From NCBI RefSeq assembly GCF_000024405.1, contig NC_013517.1, positions 1,054,001 through 1,118,000 of the forward strand: a DNA stretch of 64,000 bases, written 5' to 3'. Made by a program: the position numbers and the translations under genes. The notes under the pieces are model-generated. The model did no database searches, was not told where the DNA came from, and saw only the letters and a program-made list of their open reading frames with translations. Source of the DNA: Sebaldella termitidis ATCC 33386. Lineage in GTDB: Bacteria > Fusobacteriota > Fusobacteriia > Fusobacteriales > Leptotrichiaceae. Positions 7,801 to 57,530 of this stretch are shown here, one piece after another. Numbering within the stretch: position 1 is the first letter of the stretch; each line of letters opens with the position of its first letter.

Positions 7801-8867
7801 TTGGAACAGCACTGGAAAATAATTATATGACGGCATCAGGCGATGGAATAACAATATACAATAAGACAGGCTATATAACGAATGAAACAGATTTCAGACA
7901 TATAATGGCAAGTCTTGCAGGAAATGTATATGCTAATATAAATCAGAGAGAAAATGATATAGCGAGAACATTTGAAGATTCAATGCATTTACTGCAAAAT
8001 TCAGTAAATAACACAAAAGAAAATGTGAAAATAAGTGTAATAGCAGGAAAAGGAAAAAATAAAGAAGAAACTGACGGGGTAGTGAGCTATGACTATGCTA
8101 CAACGGGAGTACTAGCACTAAGGGAAGTGGAAAGAACATACAGACATACTTTTGGATATTCAGTGGGATACTTGCATACAGGATTTGAATTTAATGACGG
8201 GAACAGCAGTGAAGAATGGGTAGATACAATCCAGCTCGGAGTACATAATAAGTATAAGTCGGGTGGCTGGGAAGTAAGAAATGACCTTACGGGAAGAGTG
8301 AGCTTTCATAATGTGGACAGAAATATAGACTGGCCGTCACCGCTTGTAAGATCGGAAATGAATGGGACATATGAAACATATAGTCTAACAAGTGATAATA
8401 TTCTCGGGAAAGAATTCGGACTTGGTAAGAAAGCAAGTATAATGCCGTATGGGGCATTCAGGGCAATGTATGTGACAAGACCGGCATTCGATGAAAGCGG
8501 GCTGGAGGCACTTGAGGTGGAAGGAAACGATGCATGGAGTGCTAAGCCGAGAGCAGGTGTGGAACTAAAAGGATCTGTACCGCTCGGGGCAAAGTCGGCA
8601 TGGAAGCTGAAAGGAACACTGGATCTTGCTTATGAATATGAACTGGCAGATCTGAATGAAAGAGAAAAAGCAAGATTAACAGCAATAGAAGACGGATATC
8701 ATGAGCTGTCGAAACCGCAGGAGGAAAAAGGAGCATTCAGAACAAGAGCAGAAATAGGTGTGGAAGTAGAAGACAGATACGGAGTGTTTATTACAGGTGA
8801 ATATTTGTCAGGGAATGATAAAGAAGATGATTACAGAGCAGGAGTAACACTTAAAGCAGTATTCTAG
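1854..8867 (+). CDS. Giant type Va autotransporter 1
   Basis: 2,337-residue secreted surface protein with a classic AAGGAGGAGCA ribosome binding site before ATG. Layout: signal peptide at about 1-25 (basic MRKNKK, then a hydrophobic stretch); fusobacterial autotransporter-associated N-terminal domain at about 30-130 (includes YNNMVKNINQGK and VKPEYLEWQ); Pro/Thr-rich linker at about 165-222; a unique passenger portion at about 222-1000; a long run of glycine-rich rungs of the form 'N.G.I..G..S.GIY...G', typical of a right-handed beta-helix, to about 1880; and a C-terminal 12-strand-type beta-barrel at about 1980-2337 ending in aromatic Phe (LKAVF). The barrel should insert in the outer membrane and export the passenger, probably as an adhesin. 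It is paralogous to the next gene. Ligand unknown. Confidence 0.93.
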   Translation: MRKNKKLLVSFLALNSVLSMYNTAAPVTVKYNRMYNNMVKNINQGKSNEKNYETIQKILNQKNKELKDLYLQGEYIVKPEYLEWQVFFTGFYDEYGKGVDNSAENAEYHSKVTGYYDAGGNYVVTSGSIKGLAGKGYRALQQPKDINLGVSIPLKGLSREPLNLSLTPAGEININPGSQNVTPPVFSINPTVTTNTFNIDIPNITVNSPTVPTPFSVKPPGTGNGDETYTALRPTDVGTTYRGYTAMISQYNLTTGNMTAHFSGSGYTGLGSCTSGGCLTSYDVENLNGAIDWRVGSGANYGATDPVINDLTVSSAPGVGKAVYDSLTALYKITAAEKIILGIPNNPVGGTADNLVMTLDSKATGNDMPHLIQFDPHTNTNRKYTAYIQDHYGNATGRTNTSDQESDTDKRVQYYYNVLENHGLLQLKGSNGLLIGLQSHNGVVSAVYENYGEMIGLNEGTNPTNHVAHAFIAAQNNSYNHRRFEFYNKPGGLVELRAKSSIAYYYGDPNNYISNKAPHYNIFNEGRIVLYGSENIGISTNGASRDPEGSKIVLYTPIEINGDNSIGVEISKLMDDGYETPVAENPSGGANTYDARPSAIRVIIGKEENKYAGNSTGLNSAGNPFEAGYVEDSVGLYIDKAGLTYRLKDFGFEFGDYARYGKLVYLKAGTLYLDNRETTDINITAGKDNYVFISDSSSSDLTVNPNLNIGTEAKPVNGTIGILGINNGKIHFGASNSIKTYGENSHAVIIQGGSVLNNAAAGLNHSFEVNGKGSIALYVNQGTADFSNSPEINVKAVGEKAVGVYNSSGVVKLGASGTGTGIYTADGLNSVLFYNKTTNAANSIETSGSIFTVKNGGLFSYIENKLSAPQIKFTNTGGTTLNLSDGARGFIYTGNNTSVAAADIQNYFNDNYSGHGNMTVNLSSNASLFVIQEFGSISLDDVNTVAAGTGIFNQINNTGGKNAFLTKGTLVLNPASNLVDLDSPSELYLNIDKALLGITVNSGVAVKGTQDGQAALADDNSYDAVLHVKMENNGTIDLQGKSSIGIYTNNGKITNNNIINVSGDSSLGIFSENGTVTSNTGTINIGNGSVGIYGISHQNPASVPAHGGGLIDIANTGVIRASAGTGAIGIYADNNRTGGIASDADIDLSTGTIDVKNSENAVGVYVNKGTIVDSGSRITVGKNSVALYAKDSDVSLNGIIIDLNGDNALGIFLDGTSSLATTGTNIINIDGRDIILFNMNSSGAVSNNFTVGSIAPGSTYTLGNITGGVFKYTGNSELASNGTLVTGKESAVYLDGSTVTSAAGSVNVAAIALNDQYSGLLPLPAGMTAGIDGENNGTIILGDGSAGIYGKNGSRISNKGAITVGSSSAGLMTSGSGSKVLNSGMITVGTGSQGIYLKDGISAENLGAGNISGTGAGTIGIYADSNISTMQISNDGIINLSGDKSVGIYTTGTNSYLIDNNSTGIISIGNSTNTSDPGIGIYGSTAGSIITNHGTVSSGENSIGAYSSSGTVDNNGIFNVGNSGVGIYSSNGIVNLNTGSAINMGTNGAVAVYGVNSAVTNSSDLNIGDKNYGFILKGGSLTTGAGTNSILGNDSVYMYSTEAVTVINNGNVAMTGSDNIGFYMAKDPVSKTGGGTIVNSPGSVIAGTAGDNNIGIYNYGGIVDNYGMVMVGGSELKLIDGTSDIDVKSSKYSVGIYGEDAAVTNYGSGLITAGYGGFGIVAKGGTASNFGIIITNGDHSTGMYTEDGIITNEAAGVIDVTGKNAIGMAGKGEGSQLINHGTINIDGDGAIGMYGNVGTVIFNSPTGIINVTGNGQAFVSADPANSSHNIENGSAFINGAITANVIESIGSSHTLPTLINAGIIKSSGILALDGMQVMIKPDPTTKQPSSDPDYDFELSGTSIIADQVTASKPIVILPGFSDGLIANVIKLEGLIQATSGQYDFISGSLLWEATPKATGSGSDVYMSRKAFTEFTDGLWFEDFGTALENNYMTASGDGITIYNKTGYITNETDFRHIMASLAGNVYANINQRENDIARTFEDSMHLLQNSVNNTKENVKISVIAGKGKNKEETDGVVSYDYATTGVLALREVERTYRHTFGYSVGYLHTGFEFNDGNSSEEWVDTIQLGVHNKYKSGGWEVRNDLTGRVSFHNVDRNIDWPSPLVRSEMNGTYETYSLTSDNILGKEFGLGKKASIMPYGAFRAMYVTRPAFDESGLEALEVEGNDAWSAKPRAGVELKGSVPLGAKSAWKLKGTLDLAYEYELADLNEREKARLTAIEDGYHELSKPQEEKGAFRTRAEIGVEVEDRYGVFITGEYLSGNDKEDDYRAGVTLKAVF

Positions 8868-16715: not shown

Positions 16716-17028
16716 TCTGTTAACAAAAAAAATGATAGTATTGTTATTATGGAATTCATTATTATCAGTATTAATAAACGAAAATTAACTATAGTGTATG
16801 CATTTTTTCTGTGATGAGAAGTCAGAAGATTATCAATGAAGAATCAAAAAATAAATTTATAAAATAGTTAATATATATAATAGTATTCGTATAAATTTAA
16901 TAATACGAAAATTATTATTTGATTATTATATAGTAATGATACATATTTCTGAAAAAATGAAAAGCGGATCATTATCAGCGGTCATTTAGCTCGATGTCTG
17001 AAAAGAAAGAATTTTATATAATTGTTTT

Positions 17029-17054
17029 AGTCGCATTATTAAATGAATGCGACT
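17029..17054 (+). promoter_or_regulatory. 9-bp hairpin in leader of autotransporter 3
   Basis: AGTCGCATT (17029-17037) and AATGCGACT (17046-17054) are perfect complements around an 8-base loop, followed by GTTTTATT. It may be a weak terminator for the distal promoter or a protein-binding site. Confidence 0.45.
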
Positions 17055-17251
17055 GTTTTATTCCGTGAAGTAAAATTTTGGTTTTATTAAATTTTGAAGG
17101 AGGTGAAAATAAAGAATAAAAATAACAGAAAGAATTCTAAAATAATTAGTTTTTTACAGGGAAATATGATGAAAAAGATAACAGGTAAAGAGGAACCGGA
17201 CAATAACAGGAATTTTAGTTTTAGAAAACAGCATGTAGACGGAATATTTGC

Positions 17252-35409: not shown

Positions 35410-35471
35410 ATGTGCCGAAAAAATCAAGATTTAAACAGGGAAAATAATTTTTCTGCTAAGTAAAAACCAGT

Positions 35472-35499
35472 TTGACAAATTTTTATTTCATGGTATACT
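35472..35499 (+). promoter_or_regulatory. Strong promoter of the cobalamin operon
   Basis: TTGACA (35472-35477), 16-base spacer, TATACT (35494-35499). It is placed about 20 bases before the riboswitch, as expected for a riboswitch transcript. Confidence 0.8.
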
Positions 35500-35520
35500 T
35501 TAATAAATAATTTTAATAAT

Positions 35521-35665
35521 CAGGTGTTTAAGGAACTTAATAAGGAAACCGGTTTGAATCCGGTACAGCCCCCACTACTGTGAAGCTGACGAAAGCATAT
35601 TACCACTGGAAGTTTTTCCGGGAAGGATGTGAGTAGGGTGAAGCTAGTCAGGAGACTTGCCTGTT
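35521..35665 (+). ncRNA. Cobalamin riboswitch
   Basis: It carries the conserved cobalamin aptamer elements in order: AAGGAAACCGGT, then AATCCGGTACAGCCCCC, then ACTACTGTGAAGC, a GGGAAGGATGTGAGTAG segment, and the B12 box AGTCAGGAGACTTGCCT at 35646-35662. It lies between a sigma-70 promoter and cbiX. It should bind adenosylcobalamin and switch off the downstream synthesis and cobalt-uptake genes when cofactor is plentiful. Confidence 0.95.
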
Positions 35666-35768
35666 ATTATTTATTTAAATTTTCTGGGAAGGGAAAATTT
35701 AATATACTATTAGAGAGATATATAAATCAATGAAGATTTAATTTCTGTGTATCGTTTTGGTTCGGTAT

Positions 35769-35826
35769 ACAGCAGTTTTATTTCTTAAATATTGTATATT
35801 AAATTCAGCTTCTTGCTGATTTTTTT
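35769..35826 (+). terminator. Riboswitch expression platform: terminator with possible antiterminator
   Basis: TCAGC (35805-35809) pairs with GCTGA (35815-35819) and is followed by seven Ts, giving a rho-independent terminator about 100 bases before cbiX. ACAGCAG at 35769-35775 could instead pair with TTGCTG at 35813-35818 and would melt that terminator. This suggests control by transcription attenuation. The pairing was worked out by eye. Confidence 0.65.
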
Positions 35827-35921
35827 GTTTTTATAGCCTAAAAATCAAAGATTTCGGGGATATTTTCCGGCAGGGAGCAGAAAATAAAACACAATTGAAT
35901 AAGAAAGAAGGATTGATCAGA

Positions 35922-36290
35922 ATGAAAGCAGTAATGATAGTAGGGCACGGAAGCCGTTCCCTGAAATCACAGGAAGAATTCAAAAAAATAATCGAGGTCA
36001 TGAAACAGAAACTGGCTCATACAAAGGTGTATGGTACAAACATGGAATTAGCAGAACCGCTGATGGAGGATACTATTGACGAAATAGTAAAGGAAAACAG
36101 CGGGATCAGTGAAATTATTGTTGTACCATTTTTTTTGTTTGAGGGAATGCATATCAGAAAAGATATTCCTGAAAAATTAGATGAGTTCAGGGAAAAATAT
36201 CCGGATATAAAAATAACGTTCGGAAGACCGCTTGGAGCAGATCCGATGATAGCAGAGGTATTAACTGCAAGAGTAAATGAAATGCTCTAG
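35922..36290 (+). CDS. cbiX: Short-form sirohydrochlorin cobaltochelatase CbiX
   Basis: 122 residues from ATG 35922 (GAAGGA nine bases upstream). An in-frame TTG at 35895 lacks a ribosome binding site. It contains GHGSR (His9) and a second catalytic His in FEGMHIRKDIP (His77), the pair that holds the tetrapyrrole metal site. It inserts cobalt into sirohydrochlorin (factor II), the committing step of the anaerobic cobalamin route. Its length matches the small CbiX-S form, which acts as a homodimer and is best known from archaea; the usual bacterial CbiX or CbiK is about twice as long. It is the first gene behind the riboswitch. Confidence 0.88.
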   Translation: MKAVMIVGHGSRSLKSQEEFKKIIEVMKQKLAHTKVYGTNMELAEPLMEDTIDEIVKENSGISEIIVVPFFLFEGMHIRKDIPEKLDEFREKYPDIKITFGRPLGADPMIAEVLTARVNEML

Positions 36291-36356
36291 TATATATTCA
36301 GGATAACCAATGATTATAAAGATCATTATACTCAAAATAAAAAATAAGGAGGAAAA

Positions 36357-37067
36357 ATGAAAAATAAAAGTAGAATATATTTAATTGCATCAGCATTTTT
36401 AATATTATCAGTGAGCAGTTATTCAATGCATATTATGGAAGGATATCTGCCGGTAAAATGGGCAGTATTCTGGTTTATTCTTTGTGCTCCGTTCTGGATT
36501 TACGGACTTGTAAAATTACAGAAAGAAGCAAAAGGTAACGTGGAAGAAAAATTGACACTGGCACTTGCAGGAGCGTTTATTTTTGTTCTTTCCGCATTAA
36601 AAATACCGTCAGTAACAGGAAGCTCGTCACATCCTACAGGTGTAGGACTGTCTGCAATATTATTCGGACCGTTTATTACATCAATACTGGGAACTATAGC
36701 ACTTATATTTCAGGCAGTGCTGCTTGCACACGGAGGGCTTACCACACTCGGGGCAAATGCATTTTCCATGGCAGTGGCGGGACCTTTGGTGTCATATGGT
36801 ATCTACAGACTTCTGAAAAAAAAGAATAAATCTCTTGCTGTATTTCTTGCGGCTTCACTGGGAAACCTGAGTACATATGTAATAACTTCTTTCCAGCTGG
36901 CACTTGCGAATCCATCGGCAGACGGGGGAATAACAGCATCATTTGTGAAATTTGCCATGATATTTGCCGTGACACAGATTCCTTTGGCAGTAATAGAAGG
37001 ACTTCTGACTAACGTAGTAATGAATTTACTTGAAAAATATAATATAAAGCAAGGGGTGAAGGCATAA
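36357..37067 (+). CDS. cbiM: Cobalt ECF transporter, substrate-binding component CbiM
   Basis: 236-residue membrane protein with a signal peptide (about 1-23) followed by MHIMEGYLP at 24-32. In CbiM proteins the freed N-terminal Met-His coordinates the metal. Conserved [14 protein letters not shown] and [19 protein letters not shown] segments (about 80-145) and several membrane helices follow. It captures Co2+ for the CbiMNQO uptake system. The ribosome binding site is AAGGAGGAAAA. Its stop directly abuts the cbiN start (TAAATG). As part of the riboswitch operon, cobalt uptake should fall when B12 is abundant. Confidence 0.95.
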
Positions 37068-37355
37068 ATGAAAATTTTGAAGAATAATATAGCATTAATC
37101 TGCCTTGTAATAGTTATCGGAGCAGCACCTCTGATGCTGGTAAAAAATTCCGAATTTGGCGGTGCAGACGGGAAGGCCGAGGAATTAATAACTGAGATAA
37201 ATCCAGGTTATGAGCCTTGGGCGGAAAGTCTCATAGAGCCGCCGGGCGGAGAAACAGAAAGTCTTCTGTTTGCTTTGCAGGCAGCATTGGGAGCAGGAGT
37301 AGTCTGCTACGTTCTGGGATATTTCAGAGGCAGAGCCAAGAATGCTGATAGATAA
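37068..37355 (+). CDS. cbiN: Cobalt ECF transporter, small component CbiN
   Basis: 95 residues with two membrane helices (about 8-25 and 66-86) flanking an outside loop that contains the CbiN-type FGGADGKAEELI and PGYEPWAESL motifs. CbiN associates with CbiM and is needed for cobalt uptake by CbiMQO. It begins at the base after the cbiM stop and overlaps cbiQ by 14 bases. Confidence 0.95.
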   Translation: MKILKNNIALICLVIVIGAAPLMLVKNSEFGGADGKAEELITEINPGYEPWAESLIEPPGGETESLLFALQAALGAGVVCYVLGYFRGRAKNADR

Positions 37356-54871: not shown

Positions 54872-56176
54872 ATGAATATAAAAAAATCGGGTGAAATATT
54901 TGAAAGATCTCAGAAGTCAATACCGGGAGGAGTAAACAGTCCTGTGAGAGCCTTCAAATCTGTGGACAGACAATACCCCATATTTATAGAAACAGCTAAA
55001 GGAAGCAGGCTTTATGATGTGGACGGCAATGAATACACTGACTGTATCGGATCATGGGGACCAATGCTTCTGGGACATAATAATGAAAGAGTGCTTGAAG
55101 CTGTAAAAAAGAGTCTTGATGAAGGGACATCCTTTGGTCTGCCTACGGAAAAAGAAGTGGAGCTTGCCGAACTTATAAAAGAATGTTATCCGTCAATAGA
55201 TAAAGTAAGACTGACTACGTCAGGGACAGAAGCAGCAATGGCAGCAGTGCGTCTTGCCAGGGCATATACCCAGAAAAATAAGATAATAAAATTCGAGGGC
55301 TGCTATCACGGACATTCGGATTCTCTAATGGTAAAAGCAGGCTCGGGGCTACTGACTTTTGGTCATCAGGACAGCAATGGGATAACAGAGGGTGTTATGA
55401 AAGATACTATAACACTTCCTTTCGGTAACAGTGAAAAGCTTATTGAAATACTGGATTCAGAAGAAGAGGCCGCTTGTATTATTCTTGAGCCGGTACCGGC
55501 TAATATGGGACTGATAATACCGGAAGAAGGTTTTCTGAAGTTATTAAGAGAAAAATGTACGGAAAAAAATATAGTTTTGATTTTTGATGAGGTAATAAGC
55601 GGTTTCAGAGTATCGCTGGGAGGAGCACAGGAATTATTTAATATTACTCCTGATCTGACTGTACTGGGTAAAATCATAGGCGGAGGCTTCCCGGTGGGGG
55701 CATTCGGCGGGAAAAAAGAGATAATGGATATGGTGGCTCCTGTAGGAAATGTGTATCATGCGGGAACTTTGTCAGGAAATCCTGTTTCTGTAAGTGCAGG
55801 GCTTGAAACTATAAATATACTGAAAGAAAACAGGGAGATTTATAATACTCTGGAAAAAAGAACAAAGGAGCTTGTGTTAAGAATAGAAGAGCTTATAGAA
55901 AAATATAATATAAAAGCCACTGTAAATCATATTGGAAGTCTTTATACGATATTTTTCTCTGATAAAAAGGTAGAAAACCTTGAAGATGCAATGGCTACAG
56001 ATGATAAGGCATATAATACTTATTTTTCTTCTATGCTTGAAGACGGAATAATAGTTCCTCCTTCAAAATATGAGGCACATTTTATTTCATGGGCACATAA
56101 TAATGAGGATTTTGAAAAACTTATTGCGGGAGTGGAAAAAAGCTTTATTGCAATAAATCAGAATTCAGGCCGTTAG
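54872..56176 (+). CDS. hemL: Glutamate-1-semialdehyde 2,1-aminomutase
   Basis: 434-residue PLP enzyme: opening 'IPGGVNSPVRAF' (about 18-29), LTTSGTEAAMAAVRLARAYT, FEGCYHGHSD, FDEVISGFRVSLGGAQ, and the PLP Lys in LTVLGKIIGGGFPVGAFGG (near 272). It makes 5-aminolevulinate from the HemA product (C5 pathway). The ribosome binding site is AGGGAGGATTAG. It is followed by the inverted-repeat region. Confidence 0.96.
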   Translation: MNIKKSGEIFERSQKSIPGGVNSPVRAFKSVDRQYPIFIETAKGSRLYDVDGNEYTDCIGSWGPMLLGHNNERVLEAVKKSLDEGTSFGLPTEKEVELAELIKECYPSIDKVRLTTSGTEAAMAAVRLARAYTQKNKIIKFEGCYHGHSDSLMVKAGSGLLTFGHQDSNGITEGVMKDTITLPFGNSEKLIEILDSEEEAACIILEPVPANMGLIIPEEGFLKLLREKCTEKNIVLIFDEVISGFRVSLGGAQELFNITPDLTVLGKIIGGGFPVGAFGGKKEIMDMVAPVGNVYHAGTLSGNPVSVSAGLETINILKENREIYNTLEKRTKELVLRIEELIEKYNIKATVNHIGSLYTIFFSDKKVENLEDAMATDDKAYNTYFSSMLEDGIIVPPSKYEAHFISWAHNNEDFEKLIAGVEKSFIAINQNSGR

Positions 56177-56498
56177 TATGTTTTATATGTATCCAGTCAG
56201 TAACAGAAGTAATTTTTTATATAAAGAAACAGACAGTAAATATTTAATCAGATTGTAACTATGGAAAGACAGAGGTCGGGGAGCGTTGGTAATATATTTT
56301 ACGAAGAACAGTTTTATTATTTTTTATCCGGTTAAGATATAATGAGGATAAGGACTCTAGTTGTATTGATGTCAGAAACTGTACGTAAAAATACTGTATT
56401 ACCAACGTCCCCCCGCCTCTGAAAAATTATAAATTTACGACTTTCTGATTTACATCTTTGTTAATACAGAAATAAGCCGGAAAAAACAGGAGGCATAT
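56177..56498. other. Gap between hemL and cobT holding a large inverted repeat
   Basis: About 320 bases without a gene. It is dominated by the imperfect palindrome at 56270-56421 (listed separately). cobT has its own ribosome binding site (ACAGGAGGCATAT) at the end of the gap. Confidence 0.7.
56270..56421. repeat. 152-bp imperfect inverted repeat (MITE-like or structured RNA)
   Basis: The left end, 56270-56294, is complementary to 56397-56421 over 25 bases with four mismatches (CAGAGG, GGGG and CGTTGGTAATA blocks). Inside, TATTTTACG pairs with CGTAAAAATA, and ACAGTTT with AAACTGT, lengthening each arm to about 45 bases. In the loop, TTATCC and GGATAA form a further small stem. The outer arms are GC-rich, unlike the surroundings. 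No transposase and no clear target-site duplication. It could be a miniature transposable element or an RNA element within the operon. Confidence 0.75.
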
Positions 56499-57530
56499 AT
56501 GGAGATATTAAAGAAAACCATAGAGGGTATAGAGAAAATCAACAGGGAAAGTATGAACAGCAAAGAAAAAGAACTGAATTCCCTGCTAAAAACCCCGAGA
56601 GGTCTGGGAAAAATGGAGGATCTGGCAATACAGCTGGAAGGAATAAAGGAGAATTACACTCCGGATAAAAAAATAGTCTTGGTTATGGCCGCTGATAACG
56701 GTGTGGAGGCTGAAAAAGTAAGTGCTTCCAAGAGAGTAATAACCCAGTATGTGGTAGAAGCAATGCTGAGCGGTAATTCTTCTGTTAATTCTCTGGCAGT
56801 TTCGTTCGGGGCTGATGTAAAGGTAGTAGACTTGGGAATTGATTCCGAAAAAGATTTTTTTGGAATAATTAACAGAAAAATTATGAAGAACGGTACAAGG
56901 AATATAAGACGCGAAAGCGCAATGACAAGGGAAGAAGCAGTAAAGGCCATAGAAACAGGTATAGAAATAGTTGATGAGCTGGCAGAAAAAGGGTATAATC
57001 TTTTTGCACTTGGTGAAATGGGCATAGGGAATACAACTACAAGCAGTGCGGTATTAAATGTACTTACAGATATACCTCTTGAGGAAATAGTCGGAAGAGG
57101 AAGCGGAATAAATGATCAGACACTGGAGCATAAAAAAAATGTAGTAAAAGAATCAATAAAAATAAATGATCCTGATAAAACAGATCCTCTTGATGTACTG
57201 GCAAAGGTGGGCGGGCTGGATATTGCAGCTATGACCGGAGCATTTCTGGGCTGTGCCAAAAACAGGATTCCGGTAGTAATAGACGGATTGATATCGGGGG
57301 TATCGGCTCTTCTCGCTTATAAGCTCGCAGAAAATTCAAGAGATTATATGATTCCTTCTCATTTGAGCGAAGAACCGGGAATGAAGTGGCTGATGAAAGA
57401 AATGGATCTCGAGCCTGTATTTCTCATGAATATGAAGCTCGGGGAAGGCAGCGGTGCGGTACTGATGTTTCCGTTTGTGGAAGCGGCCTGCAAAATTACA
57501 AAAGATGTGAGGTTATATCCTGATGTGTAA
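56499..57530 (+). CDS. cobT: Nicotinate-nucleotide-dimethylbenzimidazole phosphoribosyltransferase
   Basis: 343 residues. Signatures: LLKTPRGLGKMEDLAIQL (about 28-45), VMAADNGVEAEKVSA, LGEMGIGNTTTSSAVL (about 170-185), VGRGSGINDQ, and the C-terminal KLGEGSGAVLMFPFVEAA with the catalytic Glu. It makes alpha-ribazole phosphate from the lower-ligand base. No lower-base synthesis gene (bza or bluB) is visible in the window, so the base may be scavenged or may differ from dimethylbenzimidazole. It overlaps the next gene by eight bases. Confidence 0.95.
   Translation: MEILKKTIEGIEKINRESMNSKEKELNSLLKTPRGLGKMEDLAIQLEGIKENYTPDKKIVLVMAADNGVEAEKVSASKRVITQYVVEAMLSGNSSVNSLAVSFGADVKVVDLGIDSEKDFFGIINRKIMKNGTRNIRRESAMTREEAVKAIETGIEIVDELAEKGYNLFALGEMGIGNTTTSSAVLNVLTDIPLEEIVGRGSGINDQTLEHKKNVVKESIKINDPDKTDPLDVLAKVGGLDIAAMTGAFLGCAKNRIPVVIDGLISGVSALLAYKLAENSRDYMIPSHLSEEPGMKWLMKEMDLEPVFLMNMKLGEGSGAVLMFPFVEAACKITKDVRLYPDV

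Follow-up and report, generated by a model that had tools for sequence, protein, structure and literature searches.

Gene context of the hemL-cobT spacer

The genome of Sebaldella termitidis NCTC 11300T, a bacterium of the termite gut, is 4,486,650 bases long, with a chromosome of 4,418,842 bases and a G+C content of 33.4% (PMC3035275). We analyzed a 64 kb stretch of this genome (G000), C1:1054001-1118000, which is called the window here; coordinates without a contig name are positions in the window. On the plus strand of the window, genes of cobalamin and heme synthesis follow each other nearly without gaps from cbiM (36357) to cbiJ (59913). Names were assigned to the genes of this run by reading their translations. 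Two of them, the open reading frames hemL (54872..56176) and cobT (56499..57530), both on the plus strand and named from sequence knowledge, are separated by 322 bases, and the hairpin studied here lies in this spacer. Relatives of cobT were present in 45 of 60 related genomes. The Shine-Dalgarno sequence of cobT, AGGAGG (56488..56493, plus strand), is a partial complement of GCCUCU, the end of the right arm of the hairpin.

Apart from the hemL-cobT spacer, the only gap of more than 110 bases in the cbiM-cbiJ run is the one after cbiM, which is filled by a cbiN-like open frame. This frame, at 37068-37340 between cbiM and cbiQ, is complete, and the RNA fold of its DNA ranks among the most stable in the window. 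A cobalamin riboswitch (Rfam RF00174, 35505-35678) belongs to the same gene run as the hairpin. Between the start of the riboswitch and cbiM (35505-36357), the riboswitch is followed by an open reading frame resembling a short sirohydrochlorin cobaltochelatase (MKAVMIVGHGSRSLKSQEEF...).

The spacer was compared with that of other Leptotrichiaceae which have both genes in reach of each other. The hemL-cobT distance was mostly 14-54 bases in the family, with two cases at 147 and one at 945, indicating that the operon junction is old and that the hairpin was added to it only in Sebaldella. Since hemL and cobT are adjacent and close in the family, the spacer is probably transcribed through. The scan of the spacer detected neither a terminator-like site nor a conserved sigma-70 promoter. 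The Ilyobacter polytropus SZUA-427 MAG was found to have two different hemL-(cysG-like)-cobT loci (L066 and L068), whose intervening genes were 80% alike, which suggests that this MAG is a mixed bin.

Fold of the hairpin

The sequence-only reading of this DNA had described a 152-bp imperfect palindrome at 56270-56421, with G+C-richer arms and further pairing inside them, and the analysis confirmed each of these points. The outer arms (56270..56294 and 56397..56421, plus strand) are 25 nt each, lie 102 nt apart and are complementary at 21 of 25 positions (84%); their G+C content is 56% and 60%, against 33.4% in the genome. When 56250-56440 was folded as RNA, the plus strand gave -61.8 kcal/mol (z -6.0) and the minus strand -54.5 kcal/mol (z -7.6), and on neither strand was any of 200 shuffled sequences as good. 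When all 64 kb were scanned in 160-nt windows (mean -25.7, s.d. 7.9), the hairpin ranked among the top two in stability despite a G+C content of only 38%. The corresponding hairpin of a second genome of the genus, G001, folded with a z of -7.5.

The plus strands of the two genomes share one plan: an outer stem, a bulge on the right side, the helices P2 and P3, a terminal stem and a small hairpin. The outer stem, P1, is formed by the two arms and consists of three runs of 7, 4 and 14 pairs, interrupted by two single mismatches. P2 is a helix of seven pairs between UUUUACG (56297..56303) and CGUAAAA (56384..56390). P3, which is found in the minimum free energy fold of both genomes and is kept in part by G001, pairs ACAGUUUU (56308..56315) with 56374-56382. 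The terminal stem-loop P4 (UUUAUCC ... GGAUAAG, 56323..56352) folds in both genomes with different letters. The small hairpin of both genomes bears the same 10-nt loop, UAGUUGUAUU (56358..56367), which is identical at 10 of 10 positions in G001 and changed in the closer relative G002. By eye, we also noticed a candidate pseudoknot of eight pairs, two of them G-U, between UAGUUGUA in the loop and UGUAACUA in the 5' flank; both partners are invariant in the two copies.

Copies and relatives

The genome of S. termitidis was searched for further copies with a DNA search, with an arm pattern allowing three mismatches and with a covariance model made from two copies. In all of these searches, the hairpin was single-copy. 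Among 98 Fusobacteriia genomes, the whole element was found in G001 only, at the same hemL-cobT locus, and a part of it in G002; it was absent from the other Fusobacteriia searched outside Sebaldella. Weak covariance-model matches in G052, G051, G033 and G068 were taken as chance, because they were short and folded differently; those in G052, G051 and G033 lay in or opposite long open frames, and no long frame was present at that of G068.

Over cobT-cbiJ, G000 and G002 are sisters (93% identity) with G001 as the outgroup (84%), which indicates that the arms, absent from G002, were lost there. In the 153-base hemL-cobT spacer of G002, the loop core is retained with 84% identity. In this genome, the TD116_bin61 MAG (L062, 2302-2454), the arms were removed by two separate deletions which left the loop core between them, and the sequence replacing the left arm folds into a small CCGG hairpin of its own.

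Conservation between the two full copies

The locus was aligned with locus L034 of G001, and identity at four-fold degenerate sites served as the neutral comparison: 59% of these sites were identical in hemL and cobT, and 63% in the whole run. In the spacer, two blocks stood far above this level. Block 1 (56240-56300) was identical at 60 of 61 positions and block 2 (56395-56460) at 64 of 66, together 124 of 127 against 59% at four-fold sites (P below 1e-12 for each block). The loop between the blocks was identical at 71 of 94 positions, and left of block 1 the spacer could barely be aligned. Both arms of P1 were identical to those of G001 at 25 of 25 positions, and near-identity continued into the 5' flank AAATATTTAATCAGATTGTAACTATGGAAAGA (56238..56269) and the 3' flank (56422..56460). 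Because conservation runs 30-40 bases past each arm, the conserved element is longer than the palindrome first described and spans about 56238..56460 on the plus strand, including block 1, the loop and block 2.

Within the aligned 25 kb, every other identity run of at least 49 bases fell inside a gene, or else in the riboswitch region or the leader that extends to cbiM. If that region and leader are set aside, no non-coding block of the gene run other than the element has about 50 consecutive bases in common between G000 and G001. The stretch from 35462 to 36059 itself consists largely of long identity runs with G001. The four mismatches between the P1 arms are the same in G000 and G001; thus the identity of the arms is not explained by mutual correction of one arm by the other.

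Covariation and strand

The two strands of P2 read UUUUACG/CGUAAAA in G000, against UUUUGCA/UGCAGAA in G001. These sequences differ by two double compensatory changes and one change from U-A to U-G. When five changes were drawn at random in P2, all seven pairs survived in about 1% of the draws. Covariation in P2 is real but thin, since it comes from one comparison of two full copies in one helix, and we regard it as modest. The structure had six G-U pairs when read on the plus strand and one on the minus strand, in each genome, and the folding energy was also lower on the plus strand. The asymmetry in G-U pairs favors an RNA of the plus strand, in the sense of the operon.

The earlier proposal of a conserved structured RNA in the cobT leader was thus supported by conservation far above the neutral level, a structure common to G000 and G001 and modest covariation. 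The same reading had taken a single copy lacking both conservation and covariation in relatives as evidence against itself: the copy is indeed single, but conservation and covariation are both present.

Proposed function

The hairpin is probably a lineage-specific RNA that regulates or processes the operon, rather than a mobile element. Our main reading, tentative at roughly 45%, is that it is a structured RNA specific to Sebaldella. It would be carried between hemL and cobT by the polycistronic cobalamin/heme mRNA and act there as a processing or stability element. Most likely it would work in cis, as an intercistronic element for processing, stability or translation of the downstream mRNA. 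The element would be co-transcribed with the operon, as the tight hemL-cobT spacing of the family indirectly suggests. The long rod, P1 followed by P2 and P3, could then be a site of RNase III-type cleavage or a barrier to 3'-exonucleases, and a protein or a second RNA might bind at the conserved flanks and the 10-nt loop. In this way, the output of cobT-cobC-hemB-cbiJ would be set apart from that of the upstream hem/cob genes. For cobT itself, the hairpin may be a regulator or a processing site.

Two observations do not fit this processing-element reading well. The nearest relative, G002, manages without the arms. In addition, ordinary processing hairpins conserve structure more than letters, so the frozen letters of the stem would be better accounted for by sequence-specific binding or by a stand-alone RNA. 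That the letters of both stem and flanks are frozen suggests a specific partner, and would also be compatible with a small RNA gene in the spacer. Such an RNA would act in trans or via a protein, and the rod would form its body. Frozen letters in the stem, conservation of both flanks and a conserved 10-nt loop are features typically seen in RNA genes that have a promoter and ends of their own. In both genomes, a TATAAT/AATAAT box (56426-56431) also precedes the hairpin start on the minus strand by about 4 bases. However, the best minus-strand matches to a -35 element reached about 3 of 6 positions, the minus strand is disfavored by the G-U asymmetry, and the spacer scan revealed neither a terminator nor, on either strand, a conserved sigma-70 site. 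With the position inside an old operon junction also counting against it, we consider a stand-alone small RNA rather unlikely.

A more ambitious version would be that the element founds a new class of sequence-specific regulatory RNA, confined to the genus and placed in a tetrapyrrole operon. A dedicated partner would then recognize the stem letters, the flanks and the 10-nt loop of the rod, which would either control cobT-hemB-cbiJ in cis or be released as a small RNA; we regard this as a speculation that is unlikely to be correct.

The complementarity noted above between the right-arm end and the Shine-Dalgarno region raised the possibility of a translation switch of cobT, in which GCCUCU pairs either with the left arm, leaving the ribosome site open, or with GGAGGC, closing it. 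In computed folds of both genomes, the ribosome site was mostly closed without the left arm and open or partly open with the rod intact, and the loss of both arms together in G002 would be expected if a lone right arm shut cobT. Shuffled sequences, however, closed the site equally in 42 and 68 of 300 cases (14-23%), and for this reason the switch, though geometrically possible in both genomes, is not claimed. When the hemL tail was included, the site was only 25-35% open even with the rod, and the right arm and the ribosome site did not covary. We therefore regard the switch as improbable.

We give similarly little credence to the idea that the element works as DNA. In that case, the two blocks would be inverted binding sites for a protein, spaced by about 100 bases, and the RNA fold would be a by-product. 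Such an arrangement would agree with conservation centered on two inverted blocks and their flanks, but the compensatory changes in P2, which lies outside the conserved arms, and the strand-specific G-U pairs point to RNA.

The sequence-only reading had also proposed a foreign, MITE-like origin. This was not supported, because the element has one genomic copy, which is kept at the orthologous locus of a second species. A relic of a MITE or another mobile palindrome whose copies have since gone would have inverted arms and a G+C content above the surroundings, as observed, and the junction does take in repeats. In G003, a third and more distant Sebaldella, the spacer 5' of cobT (L063) contains two copies (C136:7628-7704 and 7887-7966) of a different palindromic repeat, TGTCATCCTGAGAAACGCAGTGACGTAAGGATCTGAG..., which has about 44 matches in G003 and none in G000-G002. 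Recovery of this repeat by the same kind of search served as a positive control, indicating that true copies of the hairpin would have been detected. The hairpin, however, is not a repeat in its own or any related genome, and it was not matched in plasmid records or viral contigs; a match to an Acinetobacter phage covered 39 bases within a coding gene and was taken as chance. Conservation shows no sharp boundary at the arm ends but extends past them, with arms and flanks far above neutral sites, and no target-site duplication was found outside the inverted repeats (GGAAAGA / arm ... arm / AAAAATT) beyond A-rich similarity. A mobile relic is accordingly very doubtful. Elsewhere in the window, other long AT-rich inverted repeats with a CGTATTATT/TCGCATTATT-like motif were noticed at 790-993 and 16887-17094, which possibly belong to a repeat family of intergenic hairpins.

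Finally, a 24-codon leader frame at 56261-56335 was rejected as the main explanation, since it has no ribosome site and its frame is not preserved in the loop.

If it functions as proposed, the hairpin would provide a vitamin B12/heme operon of Fusobacteria with a post-transcriptional control point, in addition to the cobalamin riboswitch at its head. It also exemplifies an RNA under strong constraint which appeared in a single genus and disappeared again in a close relative, and is thus a good case for following the birth and decay of a regulatory RNA.

Comparison with known systems

No Rfam family matched at the hairpin. Families of plant miRNA precursors and a fungal snoRNA gave weak matches (E 0.2-1.2), which were regarded as generic to hairpins. 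6S RNA (RF00013) is likewise a rod-shaped RNA of about 150-200 nt, but did not match at the locus, and the 6S candidate of this genome is located at C1:1243393-1243592. The cobalamin riboswitch shares the gene run with the hairpin; even at a permissive threshold, RF00174 matched only at 35505-35678 and not at the hairpin. Palindromic repeats of the MITE and REP types resemble the hairpin in being palindromic and intergenic, and G003 carries a real multi-copy repeat at the same junction, whereas the hairpin is single-copy, conserved past its arms and not found elsewhere.

Stem-loops between cistrons, such as RNase III-type sites and REP-type 3' barriers, are a general class of processing and stabilizing elements in polycistronic bacterial mRNAs. 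The hairpin resembles them in its position between co-directional operon genes and in its long, near-perfect stem on the sense strand. It differs from them in that the letters of its stem and flanks are frozen between species and in being single-copy and lineage-specific. The element is best filed as a genus-restricted candidate structured RNA, new in itself but of a known general kind.
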